A DNA stretch of 33,722 nt, from the IMG/VR virus record IMGVR_UViG_3300042564_000639, positions 1 through 33,722 of that record; one strand, 5' to 3'. Below are positions 4,815 through 28,909 of the stretch, in pieces. The position numbers and the translations under genes were made by a program. The stretch comes from a virus. The notes below the pieces were generated by a model. That model saw only the letters and a list, made by a program, of their open reading frames with translations, ran no database searches and had not been told where the DNA came from. The first letter of the stretch is position 1; each line of letters opens with the position of its first letter.

Positions 4815-5185
4815 AACCAAGGGTCACTTTCTGTTGCTGTTACTTTTGCTTTGGATGCTTTAACTACCGCTGCAATTTCGTCAGCTGTAATCTCTAAGGT
4901 TGTACGCTCAACGCCGTTCTTGTCCTCGTACTTTACAACTTTGCACTTACCGACTACTAGGATCGGCTGACCTTTCTTGAAGGTATCTGCTGCTGCATCT
5001 GCTAGACCACGCCACAAAACAATGTCGAAGTAGCTTGTTTCGCCGTCTTGCCATGTGCCGTCTTGATTCTTACGGCGTTCGTTGCATGCAATGCGCATCT
5101 TGCAACGGCTTACGCCTGACTGGGTAACTTGGAAGTCTGGCTCAAAGACCAAGTTCCCGGTTGCTGTGATTGTTGGTAGTGCCAT
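4811..5185 (-). CDS. ssb: single-stranded DNA-binding protein (SSB)
   Basis: The 124-aa OB-fold SSB opens with LPTITATGNLVFEPDF. It contains CKMRIACNERRK, the SYFDIVLWRGLADAA strand, and KKGQPILVVGKCKVVKYED, all standard SSB elements. The C-terminus ends SDPWL, an acidic, aromatic tip of the type that recruits partner proteins, after a very short linker. It coats ssDNA during phage replication and recombination and probably works with the annealing protein at 6361-6924 and RusA at 5510. The ATG shares a base with the stop of the WhiB gene upstream (TAATG). Confidence 0.95.
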   Translation of the reverse strand: MALPTITATGNLVFEPDFQVTQSGVSRCKMRIACNERRKNQDGTWQDGETSYFDIVLWRGLADAAADTFKKGQPILVVGKCKVVKYEDKNGVERTTLEITADEIAAVVKASKAKVTATESDPWL

Positions 5186-5517
5186 TAGATTGCTCCTGCT
5201 TCTCTTTGTCGCTCACGGTATGTGCGCGAATTCTTAGCTTCATTTGTTTCTGTGTATAGCCGTCTTTTGTATTCTTCATCTATCCTTATTGGCGTGATCT
5301 TGAAGAACCTGCGTAGTTCTACACGCTTTGTTTCTGTTGTTCCTGCCCAGTAACCATTGACCTTGACCTTTAACGCATAGTCAAGGCAACTATCAAATAC
5401 CGCGCAACTCATACAAATACGCTTGAGCGTTGCTTCCGTGCTTGGTGCTATTGCGCCAGTGGGAAAAAACAGTTCTGGGTCTACGCCTAAGCAATTAGCC
5501 TGCGAAGTATCAAACAT
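5185..5517 (-). CDS. WhiB-like transcriptional regulator (divergent)
   Basis: This 110-aa protein has the four WhiB cysteines C9, C35, C38 and C44 (CxxC-x5-C for the last three), expected to bind a [4Fe-4S] cluster. The turn GYWAGTT (55-61) replaces the usual G[V/I]WGG, and a basic C-terminal region (RVELRRFF, YKRRL, YRERQRE) can contact DNA. WhiB proteins bind the principal sigma factor to redirect transcription (family knowledge). It is the second WhiB in this genome. It overlaps the RusA gene by 8 bases and the SSB gene by 1. Confidence 0.88.
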   Translation of the reverse strand: MFDTSQANCLGVDPELFFPTGAIAPSTEATLKRICMSCAVFDSCLDYALKVKVNGYWAGTTETKRVELRRFFKITPIRIDEEYKRRLYTETNEAKNSRTYRERQREAGAI

Positions 5518-7691: not shown

Positions 7692-8030
7692 CTAATTTGT
7701 GTAGGCAAAAACCCTTAAGAATCGGCGTTTCTCTAGTTTGTCCTTTGGAACCTTGCCAGACTTAGATAACTTCTGGCGTTCGATTGGATCCAATCCACCC
7801 CACATGCCCCACTTTTCGTCTAAGCCAATCTCTAGGCAGAAGCCCACAACTGGGCATTCCTCGCAAAGTCTTTTGGCTATCGCAAATAGATGCGGTTCGT
7901 CATTCTCAGGAAAGCAAGTGTCAGGGTGGGCATCTCTACAAGCAGCGGAATACATCCACGAATCTGGCGCAGTGCAGATCAAGCACATTCCTGAATCTAG
8001 CCACGCTTCATGGTCGCAATCTTTGAGCAT
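7692..8030 (-). CDS. whiB: WhiB-like transcriptional regulator (canonical)
   Basis: The 112-aa protein has C31, C56, C59 and C65 as cluster ligands and the diagnostic turn GMWGG (75-79), followed by a basic tail (KDKLEKRRFLR) for DNA contact. Upstream of the WhiB domain is an extra Cys group (C5, C16, C19), possibly a zinc knuckle. WhiB proteins occur only in Actinobacteria and their phages, so this is the strongest host clue. It sits directly before the regulatory gap at 7565-7691. The Shine-Dalgarno is weak, so the exact start is less certain than the domain. Confidence 0.94.
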   Translation of the reverse strand: MLKDCDHEAWLDSGMCLICTAPDSWMYSAACRDAHPDTCFPENDEPHLFAIAKRLCEECPVVGFCLEIGLDEKWGMWGGLDPIERQKLSKSGKVPKDKLEKRRFLRVFAYTN

Positions 8031-9457: not shown

Positions 9458-9612
9458 TGTTTTGCTCCTGTCATTAGTTCTATTGCTGACCTGATTACTT
9501 GACTTACGTTTGCGTTGTGTTGGTGCGCCCATTGTCTAACTGCAAGCATTTGCTCATTGTTAAGCCGCAATGCAATTAGATTCTCTTTTGTTTCTTTCTG
9601 TTCGTCAGCCAT
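9454..9612 (-). CDS. ribbon-helix-helix-like small regulator (52 aa)
   Basis: The ATG at 9612 is preceded by AGGAAGGG, 6 bases away. The 52-aa product starts polar (MADEQKETKE) and continues NLIALRLNNEQMLAVRQWAH, then NANVSQVIRSAIELM. This is the β-strand/helix/turn/helix pattern of CopG/Arc-type repressors. It overlaps the methyltransferase end by 8 bases and the next gene by 4. A DNA-binding regulator of this operon is likely. Its operator could be one of the inverted repeats listed elsewhere (inference). Confidence 0.72.
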   Translation of the reverse strand: MADEQKETKENLIALRLNNEQMLAVRQWAHQHNANVSQVIRSAIELMTGAKQ

Positions 9613-10246
9613 TGCTAACCCTTCCTAGTTGTTGTCCTATTGACTCAATTACGTTTACTGTTACAGCGTTTCCCATTTGTCGGTATCGCTGTGAGTCTGA
9701 TTGTGTTTCAGTCCAGCCATCTGGGAAACCTTGTAAGCGTTCACACTCCATAGGAGTTAGGCGGCGTACTTGTAATGGTTCAGCTATAAAAGTTTGCGCG
9801 TGATGTGACTGGACACTTGGTTGTAATGCTTGCAATGCTCTCGCCTGTTCTATTTCTGTTGCACTGAAATTGTTTGCTGTTGCATCTTCACGAATTGAGT
9901 AAGCAATAGCAGGAACATTGCCACCGCCAGTTCCCCAGCGTTGAATAACAGTCTGCATAATTTCATCGTCTGTCACGCGAACATCATTTACTCTCGTTCC
10001 GTCAATAATTAAAACAGATGGCATAGATGTTAAACCCCCACAAGATCGTAAAGTTTGAAAATTTTTATTATTTATTGCTGCGTTATATACATCAACAGAT
10101 AAAACCAAAACCGTTGCCCTACTTTCGCCACCGTTATCAAATGCGTTCAAAGTCGTGCAAACCCCCCCCTGCTTCCAAGTTTCATCATCGTCTTCGTTCT
10201 GCGCTCTACGAGCTTTAACAAACCACAATTTTGTTATCTCCGACAT
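9605..10246 (-). CDS. C5 cytosine methyltransferase, C-terminal part (motifs IX-X)
   Basis: The 213-aa frame carries the end of the target-recognition region (TWKQGGVCTTLNAFDNGGES, then AYSIREDATANNFSATEIEQ and LQPSVQSHHAQTFIAEP). It also has motif IX (RRLTPMECERLQGFPDGW, 161-178) and motif X (YRQMGNAVTVNVIESIG, 188-204). It lacks the catalytic motifs, which are in the gene at 10304-11032. The ATG at 10246 has only a weak, distant ribosome site (AAGGGA 12 bases away), so independent translation is uncertain. It is in the same frame as the N-terminal part, but stop codons separate them. A two-subunit enzyme like M.AquI is one reading; a disrupted gene is the other. Confidence 0.85.
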   Translation of the reverse strand: MSEITKLWFVKARRAQNEDDDETWKQGGVCTTLNAFDNGGESRATVLVLSVDVYNAAINNKNFQTLRSCGGLTSMPSVLIIDGTRVNDVRVTDDEIMQTVIQRWGTGGGNVPAIAYSIREDATANNFSATEIEQARALQALQPSVQSHHAQTFIAEPLQVRRLTPMECERLQGFPDGWTETQSDSQRYRQMGNAVTVNVIESIGQQLGRVSNG

Positions 10247-10303
10247 ACTGATTGCTTATCCCTTTTGAATCACTAGCGCATAAAGTTCCGACAAGTTCCG
10301 AAC
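10247..10303 (-). pseudogene. out-of-frame methyltransferase segment between the two halves
   Basis: Read in the frame reached by adding one G to the nine-G tract, the bases from about 10331 to 10221 encode RLTASPVLGSELVGTLCASD followed by KGISNQYVGDNKIVV. This is clearly conserved methyltransferase target-recognition sequence. That frame then meets TAA near 10220. Removing one T from the GTTTG at about 10223-10227 would join it to VKARRAQNEDDDETW of the C-terminal part. So two opposite single-base shifts, about 110 bases apart, separate an otherwise full-length enzyme. Confidence 0.7.
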
Positions 10304-11032
10304 CTAAGACTGGACTAGCAGTGAGTCGCTGCCCCCCCCCAATGCACCGCCAGAAACGGTTAGGGTTGATACTCTTCCTTCTCGGTATCCTGCAAAGCTA
10401 GATTCGCCGTAGACTCCAACGCTGTTTGCAGAGGTGCTGGAAGTTGTTTGCCCCTCTTGTTGGCTCGCCTTAAAATTCCTTGTGCTGCTTTCGCACTTAG
10501 AAAGTATTTCTCTAAAGGGTTTTGTTCCAACACTTGCGATAACAAAGACTCTTCTACGGCGTTGGGGGACTCCGAAGAATTGCGAATCAAGCAAACGCCA
10601 TTCGATGTTGCTATACCCTGAGTCGGCCAATGCAGTGAGGACTGCTCCGAAGTCGCGACCTTGATTGCTTGAAAGAAGTCCAGGCACATTCTCCAAGAGG
10701 ATAGTTTCTGCTTTGGTATGCGTTGCGAAACGCAAAGCATCGTAGAAAAGTCCACTTCGTTTGCCAGATAAGCCAGCTCGCTTTCCTGCAACAGAGAGGT
10801 CTTGGCAGGGGAATCCTCCGCAAACAAGGTCAATGTTTCCTGTAAGTCCAATTTCATCAGCCCAATCTATTGCCGTCGTTACGTCATCATGTTTTGGTAC
10901 GTTAGGGAACTGCAACTCAAGCACAGACCTAGCGTGTTTATCTATTTCAACTTGACCAACGCAAGTATGACCTGAGCGTTCTAGCCCTAGATCGAATCCA
11001 CCTACGCCAGCGAATAAGGATACAAACTTCAT
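10304..11032 (-). CDS. C5 cytosine methyltransferase, N-terminal part (motifs I-VIII)
   Basis: The 242-aa frame has the AdoMet site FAGVGG (7-12), motif IV GGFPCQDLS with catalytic Cys76, motif VI ENV (114-116) and motif VIII QRRRR (157-161). It ends soon after a nine-G tract (SGGALGGGS then SDSLLVQS-like tail, stop at 10304). Motifs IX and X are in the next frame at 9605-10246. No restriction enzyme is nearby, so it would be a solitary, protective methyltransferase. It follows a terminator-like hairpin (11081-11112) and a TATAAC box, so it may start its own transcript. Confidence 0.9.
   Translation of the reverse strand: MKFVSLFAGVGGFDLGLERSGHTCVGQVEIDKHARSVLELQFPNVPKHDDVTTAIDWADEIGLTGNIDLVCGGFPCQDLSVAGKRAGLSGKRSGLFYDALRFATHTKAETILLENVPGLLSSNQGRDFGAVLTALADSGYSNIEWRLLDSQFFGVPQRRRRVFVIASVGTKPFREILSKCESSTRNFKASQQEGQTTSSTSANSVGVYGESSFAGYREGRVSTLTVSGGALGGGSDSLLVQS
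10332..10340 (-). repeat. nine-G homopolymer tract in the methyltransferase
   Basis: Nine C on the plus strand (nine G in the gene). With ten G the frame continues into conserved methyltransferase sequence; with nine it stops at 10304. A second tract of eight G lies in the C-terminal part (10162-10169). Tracts of this length are typical slippage sites. Confidence 0.8.
10360..10857 (-). other. 165-codon open frame embedded in the methyltransferase gene (+1 frame)
   Basis: A second frame on the same strand is open for 165 codons across motifs IV-VIII of the methyltransferase. It reads MKLDLQETLTLFAEDSPAKT at the start and KYFLSAKAAQGILRRANKRG near the end. The EDSPAKTS part is simply the +1 reading of the conserved GGFPCQDLS, so its protein-like look can be a by-product. 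However, I recall similar +1 translations (KYFLS.KA..GILRRA..RGK) recurring in phage protein lists, which would fit real dual coding. No strong ribosome site is visible. Treated as uncertain. Confidence 0.3.
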
Positions 11033-23049: not shown

Positions 23050-23457
23050 TTAGTCTGCGTAGCAGAGAACTAGGAACTCTGCTGCTAAATAGTTTACTTC
23101 ACCGACTGAGATCGTGGCATACGCTCTCATATCGGTAACTCTTAAATCATACACTTTCCCACCAAGTGTTTTATCTCGCTCAATAGCCAACTTGATACTT
23201 GATGCCCCGGTGCTGGAACAGAAAGCATCTATGGCATTTTGGGCTGATCGTTCAGCTACACGACCAACTAAGACAATGACGGTAAACGTATAAGTCTGCA
23301 TTCCTCTTTGGAATGTGTCATCGTAGTTAATCGAATCAGGCTGAACTATTGCTATCGGTGGACTTGGGTTATCAGGCATAACGGCTGCTGTGCGTAGCCC
23401 AGTAATGCTGGCAAGGTTAGTGGCAATCCCTGTGCGGATTTCAGATAGTTGAGCCAT
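23050..23457 (-). CDS. tail completion / terminator-like protein (135 aa)
   Basis: An α/β protein with LSEIRTGIATNLASITGLRT then PDNPSPPIAIVQPDSINYDD and YTFTVIVLVGRV. Proteins with this pattern in front of the tail tube gene act as tail terminators or completion proteins. It shares one base with the connector gene upstream. Confidence 0.7.
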   Translation of the reverse strand: MAQLSEIRTGIATNLASITGLRTAAVMPDNPSPPIAIVQPDSINYDDTFQRGMQTYTFTVIVLVGRVAERSAQNAIDAFCSSTGASSIKLAIERDKTLGGKVYDLRVTDMRAYATISVGEVNYLAAEFLVLCYAD

Positions 23458-24062
23458 TAGGCAAAGTTTCTCATACGGCGATAAGGCGAAACCAACTGTG
23501 CAACGTCTGGGTCAATGTCCCTAGTAACAGAGATCGCGCCAAGATCGCCGAAGCCAGCTACGCCAAGCGGCGAGTCTAAACGCTTAAAGATACGGCTGGC
23601 CTGAATGATGCAAGCCTGAGTGATAGCGATTGGCACAGATGAGTAACCAAAGACGGCTGTTAGTTTGATAAGTGCTTGACCTGACTCAACCGGGAACAAG
23701 TAATTCTCGACAGCACGAATGCGTGTGTAAGGAACTTGTAGACCATCTACGTTGCCGTTAAGTGGTTCTAGTTGATAGTCACCCACGGCCCAAGTCGTAT
23801 CAAATACGCCATCGCCAGCAGAAGAACTTTGTAGGGTTATTGCTGTACCAGAGATATCGTCAATCTGGGTAATGTAAGAATCGTCAGCTGCGTAGTAGCG
23901 CGTGGCTGTACCAGATGAATAAAAGTAACGCCCAGCGTGTCCGTCAATAGCTCGTGATGCGGACTCAACAGCCATCTCTAACAGGCTGTCATCTACGGTG
24001 TCTTGAATTCTAAGTGCGGCTTTGAGCTGCGCTAAAGTTGCGTATCCGTTGTTTATTGCCAA
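23457..24062 (-). CDS. head-tail connector (gp6-like, 201 aa)
   Basis: A TTG start at 24062 follows AGGAG with 5 bases spacing. The N-terminal YATLAQLKAALRIQDTVDDS and the VESASRAIDGHAGRYF helix are hallmarks of HK97-gp6-like connectors. The C-terminus (DPDVAQLVSPYRRMRNF) is also typical. It forms the ring under the portal. Upstream lies the sugar cassette instead of the capsid gene. Confidence 0.82.
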   Translation of the reverse strand: MAINNGYATLAQLKAALRIQDTVDDSLLEMAVESASRAIDGHAGRYFYSSGTATRYYAADDSYITQIDDISGTAITLQSSSAGDGVFDTTWAVGDYQLEPLNGNVDGLQVPYTRIRAVENYLFPVESGQALIKLTAVFGYSSVPIAITQACIIQASRIFKRLDSPLGVAGFGDLGAISVTRDIDPDVAQLVSPYRRMRNFA

Positions 24063-24087: not shown

Positions 24088-24948
24088 CTACTTGCGTTCT
24101 ACTAATGCCCTACGGATACCTTCACGCAAACTAATCTGAGGTTTGAAGTAGTGATGTGACTGATAAGGATTACCAACACGATACTGAACACCAACTGGCG
24201 CAGTAAGTATGTGGTTGAAGATTGGTTTGAGTTCTGCTTCCTCGCAGACCATTTGAGCCAAGTCATTAAAACTCGTAGGAACTCCAGAGCATAGATTCCA
24301 AGTACCGTCATACCCAGTCTGAACGTGCCAAAGCACAGCCTGAACAATGTCCTCAATGTGGATGAAGTCGCGTACCTGCTCACCGTCACCCCAAATGTCA
24401 AAGACTTCAACCCCGGCTAATGCGCGGTCAATGAAACTAGGGAACGGATAATCGGCATCTTGGTCTGAGCCGTAGCCGCTAAACGGTCTAAAGATAAACA
24501 TCTTCGAATCAGTGACAAACTGGGAAAGGTACTCCCCGGTTAATTTTGCCCAGCCGTAAGTTAGGTCAGGATTACTAACAGCATCTAAGCGAATGTCTGA
24601 CTCTGCTAAACGGTATCTGTGTTCTGGCTTTTGTAGCTCGATTGGGTAAGCAGCCGAGCTAGAGAAGTAGACCACGTTCTTAGGCTTAGTCTTTTGCACC
24701 CAGTTAAAGAACTCCGCATCTATGGATAAGTCTGTGGCTACGCTAAGTGGCTCACCTTCGATAGTTGCCCGACCACCAACAATGGCTGCTAAGTGAATTA
24801 CTAGATCAAACTGTTCTGCATTTTCCTTAAAGAAATCCCTGCAATCGTTGCCGTCTTTCAAGTCAATGCCGGTTATGTCGCTATCAGGCAAAGCCTTAAC
24901 AAAGTTGCGACCAACAAAACCCTTATGCCCAGTAATAAGTATCTTCAT
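24088..24948 (-). CDS. NAD-dependent epimerase/dehydratase (nucleotide-sugar)
   Basis: The 286-aa short-chain (extended SDR) enzyme has the Rossmann motif TGHKGFVG (G7, G10, G13), a conserved SSSAAYP strand, and the catalytic YGWAK (Y131, K135). The later WGDGEQVRDFIHIEDIVQAV segment is typical of GDP-fucose or UDP-sugar epimerases. The ATG at 24948 shares its base with the preceding stop (TAATG). It would supply an activated sugar for the three glycosyltransferases upstream. The substrate cannot be told from sequence. Confidence 0.87.
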   Translation of the reverse strand: MKILITGHKGFVGRNFVKALPDSDITGIDLKDGNDCRDFFKENAEQFDLVIHLAAIVGGRATIEGEPLSVATDLSIDAEFFNWVQKTKPKNVVYFSSSAAYPIELQKPEHRYRLAESDIRLDAVSNPDLTYGWAKLTGEYLSQFVTDSKMFIFRPFSGYGSDQDADYPFPSFIDRALAGVEVFDIWGDGEQVRDFIHIEDIVQAVLWHVQTGYDGTWNLCSGVPTSFNDLAQMVCEEAELKPIFNHILTAPVGVQYRVGNPYQSHHYFKPQISLREGIRRALVERK

Positions 24949-25622
24949 TACCAAGCCTTGACGTTCTCAACATCGTTAGCAAATTCTGTGGCTAGGTACT
25001 CAGCAAAGATAGCCTGATCGCCGTTGTGCATTTCTACGGTGTTTACAGCTGCGTATCTTTCATCGTGTTCAGCCTTACCGTTTGTGTAGTGCAAATGTTC
25101 AATAATTACCTCTGGCAAGTAGTTCACGTTCTCTAGAGCGTTGCCCATAGCAAGCCAATAGTTATCTAAGAACAAATGCTTTAGGGCTGGCGGTGACATA
25201 AAGCCAGTAGCCCTAATGATCTTGCTAGACATAACTACGGCAGTTGGCAGGTTCTCGCCTTGCAGTAAATCGTTGCCATAAGCAATGCCCGGCTCTGTGC
25301 CAATAGCTTCTGCAAGTTTTGTATCCCATCCACCAGTGCGCGGTAAGTGGTCATCACCCATAAAACAGATGTAGTCATAGTCAGGAGCAAACCACAAAGC
25401 CCAGTGATTAAGAGTGCCGTTCATTCCCATACGGTCAGCAATGCAAACCTTGACGTTATTCAAGCCAGCAGTTTCTGCCATCAAGCCATTGTAAGTTTTA
25501 ACATCATCAGCATCTATGGCAAAGACAACCTCTGTAAAGTCTGCCGTTGCGTTAATGGCTTCAAATAATCTAATGGCGTTATCGTTGCGCCCTCTTGTCG
25601 GAATGATTGTAAGCATTCTCAT
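24948..25622 (-). CDS. glycosyltransferase, GT-A type
   Basis: The ATG at 25622 forms an ATGA overlap with the previous gene and gives 224 aa. The protein opens MLTIIPTRGRND, a GT2-like start, and has CFMGDDHLP with D90 and D91 for the metal/UDP-sugar site. VVFAIDADD and NGTLNHWALWF complete the core. It is the third gene of the cassette. Glycosylation of a virion protein is the likely role (inference). Confidence 0.82.
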   Translation of the reverse strand: MRMLTIIPTRGRNDNAIRLFEAINATADFTEVVFAIDADDVKTYNGLMAETAGLNNVKVCIADRMGMNGTLNHWALWFAPDYDYICFMGDDHLPRTGGWDTKLAEAIGTEPGIAYGNDLLQGENLPTAVVMSSKIIRATGFMSPPALKHLFLDNYWLAMGNALENVNYLPEVIIEHLHYTNGKAEHDERYAAVNTVEMHNGDQAIFAEYLATEFANDVENVKAW

Positions 25623-26422
25623 TGCTGCACCAGTTTCCAAAATGTATCGCCTGCCTTATCTACCATGTGGCGCAGTGCATCTGCATCGTGCCAATCCTCA
25701 ACGCTTGTAATTCCTACGTTGTCGTTAGTGTGAATCCTGCAACCTGAAAGCACCGCTTCCATAACTGCCCTGCATTCTGACTCAAAGGCTAATGGTAAAT
25801 GCACAAACCATTCCACCCTTGCCATTGCATCTAGTACCTGTTCACGCGGTACGTCTGTTAGAGCTTTGAACTCATAGCCTGCTTGTGCTGCCCAAGCATG
25901 AGCGCGTAGCTGACCTTTTAAGGGGTGATTCCTAGCAGCCCATAATGCTATTGGTTTCTTATCCATGTGGTCATAGCACTTAATGGTATCGAAGTAGCTT
26001 AGAACCTGCGCCGTCTTGGGTGGCTTTGTCCAAGATAATTCTCTGCGCATGTGTGCCGGGGTATGGGTTACGAATAAGCGAGAGCCACGAATTAGTGAGT
26101 TAAGTCCTGCGCGTGGAGTTTGTAAGTGATGAACAAATACGAACGGGTCATACTCTGAAAGTCTGTATAACTGTTCATCTGTGAACGCATCTGTTCCCGT
26201 GACAATGACTGAATCGAATTGGTGTATGTCGTGTGTATCAAATGTCTGTGGAGTGACAATCTCAATGTCGTAGTCCAAGGGTGCTTGCAAGCGGTATTCG
26301 TAGTCTGACATTTCTGCCCCACCTGCAAACTGCCCCGTGAATAGCCCTGTGGGACTCACAGAGCCACCCAGAGCCACGTTAGGCGCATTCTCTATGTGAT
26401 GCGTGTACCAGCCTATTTTCAT
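25619..26422 (-). CDS. glycosyltransferase, GT-B type
   Basis: The 267-aa protein has a GT-B-like end: ALWAARNHPLKGQLRAHAW, then FESECRAVMEAVLSG with E214 and E222 as EX7E. The N-terminal half (MKIGWYTHHIENAP, GGAEMSDYEYR) is compact, and the whole is shorter than typical GT4 enzymes. It starts 2 bases after the previous gene and ends in an ATGA overlap. Acceptor unknown. Confidence 0.8.
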   Translation of the reverse strand: MKIGWYTHHIENAPNVALGGSVSPTGLFTGQFAGGAEMSDYEYRLQAPLDYDIEIVTPQTFDTHDIHQFDSVIVTGTDAFTDEQLYRLSEYDPFVFVHHLQTPRAGLNSLIRGSRLFVTHTPAHMRRELSWTKPPKTAQVLSYFDTIKCYDHMDKKPIALWAARNHPLKGQLRAHAWAAQAGYEFKALTDVPREQVLDAMARVEWFVHLPLAFESECRAVMEAVLSGCRIHTNDNVGITSVEDWHDADALRHMVDKAGDTFWKLVQQ

Positions 26423-26424
26423 GC

Positions 26425-27600
26425 TTATAGTCGCTTGTAGGCTTTAGTGTCTAACACGGCTAGGGCTGGCTTCCAATGCTCCTCAAATACGGTATCGGCG
26501 TTATACGCCTTGGCAAACTCCTGCGCCTTTTCTGATCTGCCACGACCACGCTGGTATGCCTGCTCTAGCGCATCAACAATGCCGGGAACGCTAGGCATGT
26601 GGAACCATGAGGATTGCGGTGCATCCCATAGTGGCTGACCCTCGATTAACCAACCATCACCTAGTAGCTCGGTTGAAGCTGCAAAGTCGCTAATGATTAC
26701 AGGTGTGCCACAGGCTTGGGCTTCTATGGTTGGAATTCCAAAGCCTTCGCCATAAGAAACTGCAAGTAATACATCCATAGCTGTATAGATAGTCGCTAAG
26801 GTTTGCTGGTCAATGCCAGTGCGATAAACGTAAGGATCAACAAACTTAAACTTGTCCTCTGGTACTCCACAGGATTGAAGCAGTTGCAATAACTTGATTC
26901 CACCTAGTGCGCCCATTTGATCTGTGTGCAAATACAGAACTACGTCATCGTGCTTTTGAGCAAACATAGAGAACGCAAGAATGTTCTCACCGAATGCCTT
27001 GCGGTTAGGACTTACGCCTTTGTTGGCTGCGTTCATTCCAACAACAAACTTGTCCTCACCAACGCCTATGTAATCTCTGCCAGTAGTTCCCTTGTGGCGT
27101 TTCATTGGCTTAAAGACTGACTCAATACCGTGTGGCACATAAAGGGACTCAATGCCTACGTTCTCAATCATTGCCTGACCGTATTGGCTCATAGCAATAG
27201 GAGTTACGAAATCTTGTGCAAGCCACTTAGTTACTTCTGGCGGTGCAGGGATGTGATCTATTGGAACCCAACTTGCTACGTTCCAGTCAGCCCACCTTGG
27301 GCCTTTGAACACCCAAACGTCATAAAGAGTAAAAAGGATGTGACCTTGCTTAGGGTGGCGTGAAGTCCAGTCGTGCATGTGTGCTGGCACTACATCGTTT
27401 GAATACATGTCTGCGCCACGCTGATAAACGGGAATCCCGTTCCATTCGTTGTTGCTTCCCTCTAGTCCGTAGTTGCTAAAGATTGCAACATCGTGACCAA
27501 TCTCTTTTAGTCGCTGAGTTACTTGCGCTGTTTGAGTTCCATAACCAGTTGCAGCCCAAGGCGCGTTACTGTTCCAACCGATTGCTAATTGCTTTGACAC
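26425..27600 (-). CDS. glycosyltransferase, GT4-like
   Basis: A GTG start at 27600. The 391-aa protein opens MSKQLAIGWNSNAPWAATGY, has the GMNAANKGVSPNRKA loop in the donor half, and a clear EX7E (E285-E293, SYGEGFGIPTIEAQACGTP). It is the first gene of the sugar cassette and lies directly after the terminator of the capsid gene. The cassette is separately delimited on its upstream side, so it may be an acquired unit. Confidence 0.88.
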   Translation of the reverse strand: MSKQLAIGWNSNAPWAATGYGTQTAQVTQRLKEIGHDVAIFSNYGLEGSNNEWNGIPVYQRGADMYSNDVVPAHMHDWTSRHPKQGHILFTLYDVWVFKGPRWADWNVASWVPIDHIPAPPEVTKWLAQDFVTPIAMSQYGQAMIENVGIESLYVPHGIESVFKPMKRHKGTTGRDYIGVGEDKFVVGMNAANKGVSPNRKAFGENILAFSMFAQKHDDVVLYLHTDQMGALGGIKLLQLLQSCGVPEDKFKFVDPYVYRTGIDQQTLATIYTAMDVLLAVSYGEGFGIPTIEAQACGTPVIISDFAASTELLGDGWLIEGQPLWDAPQSSWFHMPSVPGIVDALEQAYQRGRGRSEKAQEFAKAYNADTVFEEHWKPALAVLDTKAYKRL

Positions 27601-27660
27601 AGGGAGTTCCTTTATTCGCAGGTGCTTTGACCTTACATTAAAACATAGTGAAACAAAAGC

Positions 27661-27696
27661 AGAACCCCACCAAGCCTGCGCTCCCGGTGGGGTTCT
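27661..27696 (-). terminator. strong hairpin terminator after the capsid gene
   Basis: Perfect 11-bp arms AGAACCCCACC and GGTGGGGTTCT around a 14-base loop, followed on the minus strand by GCTTTTGTTTC. It lies 20 bases downstream of the capsid stop. Confidence 0.85.
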
Positions 27697-27715
27697 ACGT
27701 TTTGGGGTTCCCTAA

Positions 27716-28909
27716 TTAGGAAGCTGCTCCAGCAAAATACTTCACATGTGAAGTCTGGATTAGGTTTCCATCCACGCGCATTGTGGCGCGGAAGGTAATT
27801 AGGTCGTTCTGGAATGCGTAATCGTCTGAACGATCTAGGCGTAATCCACCAACGGTGCGAGCAAAGTAACTTGGCAAGTGACCAAAGATTACTGACTTCG
27901 CGCTTGTTGCTGGAGCTGCCATTGCTGGGTTCTCAAAGATTGGGTAGCCAAGCAATAGATCACGAGCATCAGCAGATAGGGATGGGCTGAACAGGTACTG
28001 TCCGGCTGAATCCTTTAGCTTACGAACGGCAGCGATTGACTGAGCGTTCATTTGCCATCCTGTACCCGGTAGGGTGCGACCTGCGGTATCAACGCTGTAA
28101 ACCAAGTCAATTAGGTTGTCAGCAGTGAATGCGCCTGTTACGCCAGTTCCACCAGTGATGCCTGAACCAGCAGCAGTTACGATGCCTGTTGGCTGTACTG
28201 TTCCTGTTCCAGTTGTTAGTGCGCCATTGACTGCATAGCCAAGTGCGTTACCGGTCTGAGTTGCAAGGAATCCAAGAATGTCCACGCCTGCATCTTCAAC
28301 CATTTCACGGCTGATCTGAGTTAGGAACGAGTACTTGTATGCACCAAGGGTCTTGAATGCATTGAATGTTGGATCGCTTTCACCAATAGCAGCAGCTTCG
28401 GAAGAAACTGTGCCTGTGCTGTATGCGCTCAAGCTAGGAATCTGCAAGTTCTCGCCACCAGCGGTGTTAAGAATTGTTGAAGTTTCTAGCATTGGGCCAA
28501 CGTGACGAGCAAGCATGATTACCTGATCGTAGAAAGAGGTCGGTACTGGTGCGCCAGTTGAACCCTTTGTTACATCGCGCTTCTCGAACGAGTGGGAACG
28601 AATCTCACCACGAGCTAGGGAACGGATTAGTTCAGCTTCGTTGATTTCTGGAACAGATGCAACGGCTGGCTTAACTTGTGCTTCAAAACCCTTCATGGCT
28701 TCAGCAGCGCGGTTTTCGCGTTCTGCCTGAGCGTTCATGGTTTCAATTACCTGTGAACGTGAATCAAGGTCAGCCATGATGCGGTCATAGGTTTGGTTTT
28801 CTTCTGCGGATAGATCGCGCTTTTCAGCTGCTGCTGAGTCAAGAAGAGCCTTTGCTTCTTCCCAAGCCTTTGCACGAGCTTCTGCTTGCTGACGAATGTA
28901 GTCAGACAT
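27716..28909 (-). CDS. major capsid protein, HK97 fold (397 aa)
   Basis: The ATG at 28909 follows AGGAG with 5 bases; a longer open frame from 28978 lacks a ribosome site. Residues 1-75 are a coiled-coil delta (scaffold) region rich in Ala, Glu and Lys. The body follows with SFYDQVIMLARHVGPMLETS, EAAAIGESDPTFNAFKTLGA and REMVEDAGVDILGFLATQTG, all typical of HK97-type capsids. The protease at 29071-30576 would remove the delta region. The gene is bounded by terminators on both sides, so its expression may be set independently. Confidence 0.95.
   Translation of the reverse strand: MSDYIRQQAEARAKAWEEAKALLDSAAAEKRDLSAEENQTYDRIMADLDSRSQVIETMNAQAERENRAAEAMKGFEAQVKPAVASVPEINEAELIRSLARGEIRSHSFEKRDVTKGSTGAPVPTSFYDQVIMLARHVGPMLETSTILNTAGGENLQIPSLSAYSTGTVSSEAAAIGESDPTFNAFKTLGAYKYSFLTQISREMVEDAGVDILGFLATQTGNALGYAVNGALTTGTGTVQPTGIVTAAGSGITGGTGVTGAFTADNLIDLVYSVDTAGRTLPGTGWQMNAQSIAAVRKLKDSAGQYLFSPSLSADARDLLLGYPIFENPAMAAPATSAKSVIFGHLPSYFARTVGGLRLDRSDDYAFQNDLITFRATMRVDGNLIQTSHVKYFAGAAS

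Follow-up and report, generated by a model that had tools for sequence, protein, structure and literature searches.

Glycosylation of the capsid and tail-tube proteins is established in mycobacteriophages, and glycosylated virions are described for Che8, Corndog and Myrna (Freeman et al. 2023, via PMC12363180 and PMC12619734). In Corndog, an O-methyltransferase and three transferases are encoded inside the virion operon (PMC4351075). The locus described in this study resembles these systems in that it appears to belong to an actinobacteriophage and encodes its own glycosyltransferases (a GT4 enzyme, a second GT-B enzyme and a GT-A-like enzyme); the virion proteins of Corndog are glycosylated. 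The Corndog transferases lie between portal and protease, whereas those described here lie between capsid and connector. Mycobacteriophage glycans are reported at C-termini (PMC12619734, citing Freeman 2023), whereas our candidate acceptor is an internal loop residue. We found no description of empty sites or of acceptor covariation for the mycobacteriophage systems, and tblastn searches with the three transferases returned no mycobacteriophage among the matches at the limits used.

The DNA analysed is the 33.7-kb virus record IMGVR_UViG_3300042564_000639, whose full length of 33,722 nucleotides is called the window. Its nearest relative in culture belongs to the Microbacteriaceae phages rather than to the mycobacteriophages. 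Pontimonas phage phiPsal1 (MG835450) has a homologous capsid (46% identity) and a GT4 (44% identity) in the same slot before the neck gene. The partners of GT4 in that slot, a reverse-strand methyltransferase and another GT2, differ from those in the window, and the genome paper (PMC6106888) discusses neither the phage nor the function of the slot. Microcystis phage Mae-JY09 (PP395641) carries a GT4 of 39.5% identity and a relative of the epimerase between its capsid and head-tail adaptor genes, along with a short protein with weak transferase matches. It differs in having a cyanobacterial host, and its other proteins are unrelated or weakly similar; the matches to the window capsid did not include its capsid protein. 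Because the same slot is thus occupied beside two different capsid proteins, the function of these genes is probably tied to the head. A Streptomyces phage homologue of the GT-A-like gene is located near an endolysin gene, not beside an annotated capsid gene.

Gene order and contents of the capsid-connector slot

In the window the virion genes are on the minus strand, in the order portal, protease, HK97 capsid, four sugar genes, connector, tail terminator, tail tube and tape measure (Table 1). The original prediction had placed four co-directional sugar genes between capsid and connector at 24088-27600, and this arrangement was borne out, all four being on the minus strand. The overlaps that it described were also found by direct reading: the second GT-B gene overlaps the GT-A gene in ATGA, and the GT-A gene overlaps the epimerase gene in TAATG. 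The GT4 and second GT-B genes are separated by 2 nt. The GT-A and capsid genes probably start at 25622 and 28909, respectively, the mechanical list of open reading frames being overlong for both. WhiB is reported as restricted to Actinobacteriota (PMC10202952, PMC6802176), and the two WhiB genes in the record therefore point to an actinobacterium as the host. The host is placed to phylum only, by these two genes, since a scan of genome contigs gave no useful relative of the window. Two adjacent ORFs (10304-11032 and 9605-10246, region 9605-11032) match different parts of phrog_116 and represent a DNA methyltransferase.

Table 1. Coordinates of the features discussed in the text (positions in the window)
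Feature	Position	Strand	Evidence or remark
Major capsid protein, HK97 fold, proposed glycan acceptor	27716..28909	-	PF05065 E=1.8e-56; start codon and AGGAG upstream
Capsid Ser249 codon TCA (alignment position 248), top candidate O-glycan acceptor	28163..28165	-	S/T covariation with GT4
Capsid Thr335 codon ACA (alignment position 334), weaker second candidate	27905..27907	-	Raw S/T association
Hairpin terminator after capsid gene, loop CGCAGG (27675-27680)	27659..27698	-	16 pairs and T run; conserved with compensated stems
CCTGCG, complementary to hairpin loop, just upstream of GT4 ribosome-binding site	27617..27622	-	
GT4-family glycosyltransferase (GT-B), proposed initiating enzyme	26425..27600	-	PF13692 1.3e-10; phrog_2170 2.4e-37; invariant EX7E pair
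Second GT-B glycosyltransferase	25619..26422	-	AlphaFold model; invariant EX7E pair
GT-A/GT2-like glycosyltransferase, exchangeable module	24948..25622	-	phrog_14945 8.2e-58; invariant GDD motif
NAD-dependent nucleotide-sugar epimerase/dehydratase, extended SDR, exchangeable module	24088..24948	-	PF01370 1.4e-30
Head-tail connector, downstream edge of slot	23457..24062	-	phrog_442 4e-16; PF05135
WhiB-like regulators, two in one small phage	5185-5517 and 7692-8030		

Relatives were gathered by capsid and by GT4, and the slot statistics refer to 118 distinct loci in which capsid and connector are both present. GT4 is present in the slot of 108 of these loci, GT2 alone in 2, and the slot is empty in 7; by its own annotation, Mae-JY09 is one further GT4-bearing case beyond the 108. 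In the 7 cassette-free loci, whose gene order it had been proposed to compare, the connector follows the capsid after a gap of 78-91 bp, in agreement with the expectation that the connector usually stands directly behind the capsid. At least 15 gene sets occupy the slot among the 118 loci, mostly sugar-related or sugar-decoration enzymes. Their building blocks are GT4, GT2-like, GT17 and TOD1-like transferases, epimerases, methyltransferases including FkbM, a cytidylyltransferase and a radical-SAM protein. The capsid-connector interval ranges from 78 to 5220 bp (sd 1068), against sd 16 for connector-terminator and sd 41 for terminator-tube; the portal-protease and protease-capsid intervals are also variable (sd 626 and 449). 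The slot is a hotspot.

In the window's clade the stable core is GT4 and the second GT-B enzyme. The third position holds the GT-A and epimerase genes, the same pair with a methyltransferase between them, or either of two other GT2-like enzymes. The window and locus L015 share 92% DNA identity through the end of the second GT-B gene, are then unrelated, and become alike again from the last epimerase codons; the module exchange is precise and occurs at gene edges. Among phages bearing the second GT-B gene, the terminal module requires 14 changes on the capsid tree, and for GT-A versus the rest at least 8 changes are forced by well-supported branches. As to whether the cassette is swapped between phages, it is mainly the distal module that is exchanged, and GT4 and the second GT-B stay in place in this clade.

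Other genes were observed around the slot. Small genes lie between epimerase and connector in several relatives (L012 8470-8868, L066 14587-15247, L037 4991-5341 and others), and one family of 115-116 aa is found on either side of the cassette, depending on the phage. A cytidylyltransferase-like gene (PF01467) is present in the slot of many relatives (L153-L170, e.g. L170 5498-5923), hinting at a CDP-linked donor for their glycans. Two relatives have a radical-SAM/SPASM protein in the slot (L158 5653-6594), which is unusual among sugar enzymes.

The four enzymes

The first two enzymes are of the GT-B type. GT4 has this fold by its Pfam match, and its EX7E pair is the invariant E285/E293. The second enzyme had no sequence-family match, and a profile-profile comparison with GT4 was uninformative (probability 1.4). 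Its fold is settled by the structure model: the AlphaFold model (pLDDT 89.9) aligns with HepE over 242 residues (Z 20.0, rmsd 2.8), and its invariant EX7E pair is E214/E222. The third enzyme belongs to phrog_14945 and has an invariant GDD motif as a possible DXD-like motif; its model is weak (pLDDT 63), and the fold matches do no more than suggest the GT-A type. The epimerase has the NAD-binding motif GHKGFVG (GxxGxxG) and the YxxxK motif YGWAK of extended SDR proteins. Its product cannot be named, since its nearest relatives in the PDB include both GDP-mannose 3,5-epimerase and GDP-fucose synthase. The original prediction called the cassette self-contained, and this does not hold: one epimerase cannot supply the donor sugars without host metabolism, and these must be largely host-supplied.

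The capsid residue associated with GT4

The analysis started from a comparison of capsids with and without the cassette, which gave three leads, and two further scans brought the later-fetched loci. The strongest association is at alignment position 248, which corresponds to Ser249 of the window capsid (numbered from Met1; sequence context AAGSGITGG), an internal loop residue. Ser or Thr is found at this position in 214 of 227 GT4-bearing phages and in none of 34 empty-slot phages; 13 GT4-bearing phages have Ala. Position 248 ranked first among 3402 raw column-by-class tests and also first of 783 tree-corrected tests on independent pairs, with about 5.6 of 6 contrasts in the expected direction and none opposed. 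With six independent contrasts, the sign test gives p of about 0.03 before allowing for the scan. The later-fetched loci, which are related to the first-fetched ones, show the same pattern (S/T in 98% of 65 GT4-bearing versus 0 of 26 empty-slot phages). The residue tracks GT4 in particular, because the GT2-only phages (L243, L252 and L279) have Glu at this position. Ser249 is therefore, from the covariation, a candidate O-glycan acceptor on the capsid.

Position 334 (Thr335) is a weaker second candidate: its raw association (S/T in 205/223 versus 3/34) was weak once tree-corrected, and the later-fetched loci gave 85% versus 12%. Capsid columns 172, 335 and 390 were also associated with the cassette. 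Position 251, one of the three first leads, failed on the later-fetched loci, where 81% of the new empty-slot phages have S/T. The second-ranked position 172 was rejected as a general S/T site, being Ala or Gly in many GT4-bearing phages including the window.

It is possible, though unlikely, that another virion protein such as the tail tube is glycosylated and that the change in the capsid residue is indirect. Tail-tube glycosylation is reported in mycobacteriophages (PMC12619734), and column 106 of the tail tube is raw-associated with the cassette (S/T 90/96 versus 8/23). After tree correction, however, the best tail-tube column nets 3.1 out of 5 contrasts, no S/T column there exceeds 2.6, and the capsid position is much stronger. 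No comparable column was found in any of the three other virion proteins, the best net contrasts being 3.1 for the tail tube, 2.7 for the connector and 3.1 for the tail terminator. Glycan decoration of the capsid or tail had been predicted. A decorated virion is indeed the reading with the best support, and the capsid is favoured over the tail, since one capsid residue covaries with cassette presence and no residue of these three proteins does so to a comparable degree.

We regard it as quite improbable that the link between residue and cassette is hitchhiking, that is, that capsid 3' ends move between phages along with the adjoining cassette without being functionally linked to it. The two do adjoin, and column 390 near the C-terminus is associated as an aromatic residue. 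However, there is no increase in association with proximity to the cassette, and trees from aa 1-200 and from aa 256-396 both preserve it. Moreover, what changes across deep divergence is specifically whether Ser/Thr is gained or lost.

Modification of the host surface during infection, which would exclude other phages or ease release as in serotype conversion, likewise has a low probability. Phage glycosyltransferases can alter the host wall, as proposed for the freshwater actinophages E7 and F5 (PMC10202952), and frequent module exchange is also compatible with such a role. Against this, the genes stand among virion genes behind the capsid, and the capsid residue would be left unexplained. 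In gtrABC-type serotype conversion a membrane flippase and membrane-anchored transferases are expected; no flippase, membrane-anchored component or membrane-spanning stretch was found among the four proteins (highest 19-residue hydropathy mean 1.1).

Glycosylation of hydroxylated phage DNA bases against nucleases, though proposed for other freshwater actinophages (PMC10202952) and in line with the similarity of the second GT-B fold to the DNA alpha-glucosyltransferase of phage T4, is very improbable: that fold match is common to many GT-B enzymes, and the capsid residue is again left unexplained. The record contains no thymidylate-synthase-like enzyme (PF00303), and the PHROG scan of its larger ORFs gave no base-modifying family, although other routes or missing sequence may play a part.

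We consider it likely, from the covariation and the enzyme families, that the phage uses the cassette to assemble an O-linked glycan on its own capsid. Acting in the host cytoplasm, GT4 would place the first sugar on capsid Ser249 (Ser/Thr); the second GT-B enzyme would extend the glycan, and the GT-A-like enzyme would finish it with a terminal sugar that the epimerase has produced or modified. Exchange of the terminal module would then give different sugar coats on otherwise similar virions. This catalytic order, the linkage and the exposure of the glycan on the surface we infer, as we do the benefit, which would likely lie in the stability of the particle or in a changed exterior, to which hosts, grazers or particles bind differently.

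The post-capsid hairpin and the meaning of the locus

The strong terminator that the original prediction placed before the cassette is real (27659-27698), but it is not a feature of the cassette. Nearly all relatives have it behind the capsid gene, and because these include empty-slot phages, it marks the end of that gene. Its stems have many different sequences with pairing kept. Only sub-threshold Rfam matches were obtained at the hairpin, and a promoter scan gave fewer sites than in shuffled sequences. In L048 (1525-2079, minus strand), L053, L111 and others, small reverse-strand genes lie between the hairpin and GT4, one of them encoding a 184-aa protein with an HExxH-like HELAHH motif. 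Because of these intervening genes, GT4 probably has its own promoter in such relatives.

In 113 of 195 GT4-bearing cases, 6 nt or more of the hairpin loop are complementary to the region where GT4 starts, versus 8% in dinucleotide shuffles; a loop-target match was found in 0 of 26 empty-slot phages. Loop and target covary: the window has CGCAGG/CCTGCG, other phages have TTGTAGGTTG/CAACCTACAA or TCTAGGTTG/CAACCTAGA, and there are more pairs in single loci. A long-range RNA pairing of the loop with the GT4 start region (window 27617-27698) is thus probable, and the covariation suggests that it affects GT4 translation, the direction of such control being presumptive.

A more specific reading, to which we give somewhat less than an even chance, is that the slot is a capsid "serotype locus", in which a set of sugar enzymes, modular and often exchanged, O-glycosylates one capsid Ser/Thr and GT4 translation is tuned by the terminator-loop pairing. 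Its logic would be comparable to that of bacterial O-antigen loci.

In the openly readable literature we found no description of a swappable slot, of acceptor covariation or of the RNA contact. What seems to be new is a glycan locus between capsid and connector that is swappable and naturally empty in some phages, together with a candidate acceptor residue and an RNA contact that both covary. Two empty-slot records (L241 and L264) have no GT4 or GT2 model match anywhere in the records, whose completeness is uncertain. When phages encode glycosyltransferases, the enzymes are often presumed, on a guess, to modify DNA or the cell wall, E7 and F5 being examples (PMC10202952). Here the natural presence and absence of the cassette points to one specific residue as the proposed acceptor and one specific enzyme as the proposed initiator, and provides relatives that lack the cassette; the question is now directly experimental. 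If the proposed reading is true, variable capsid glycans would be common among aquatic actinophages.
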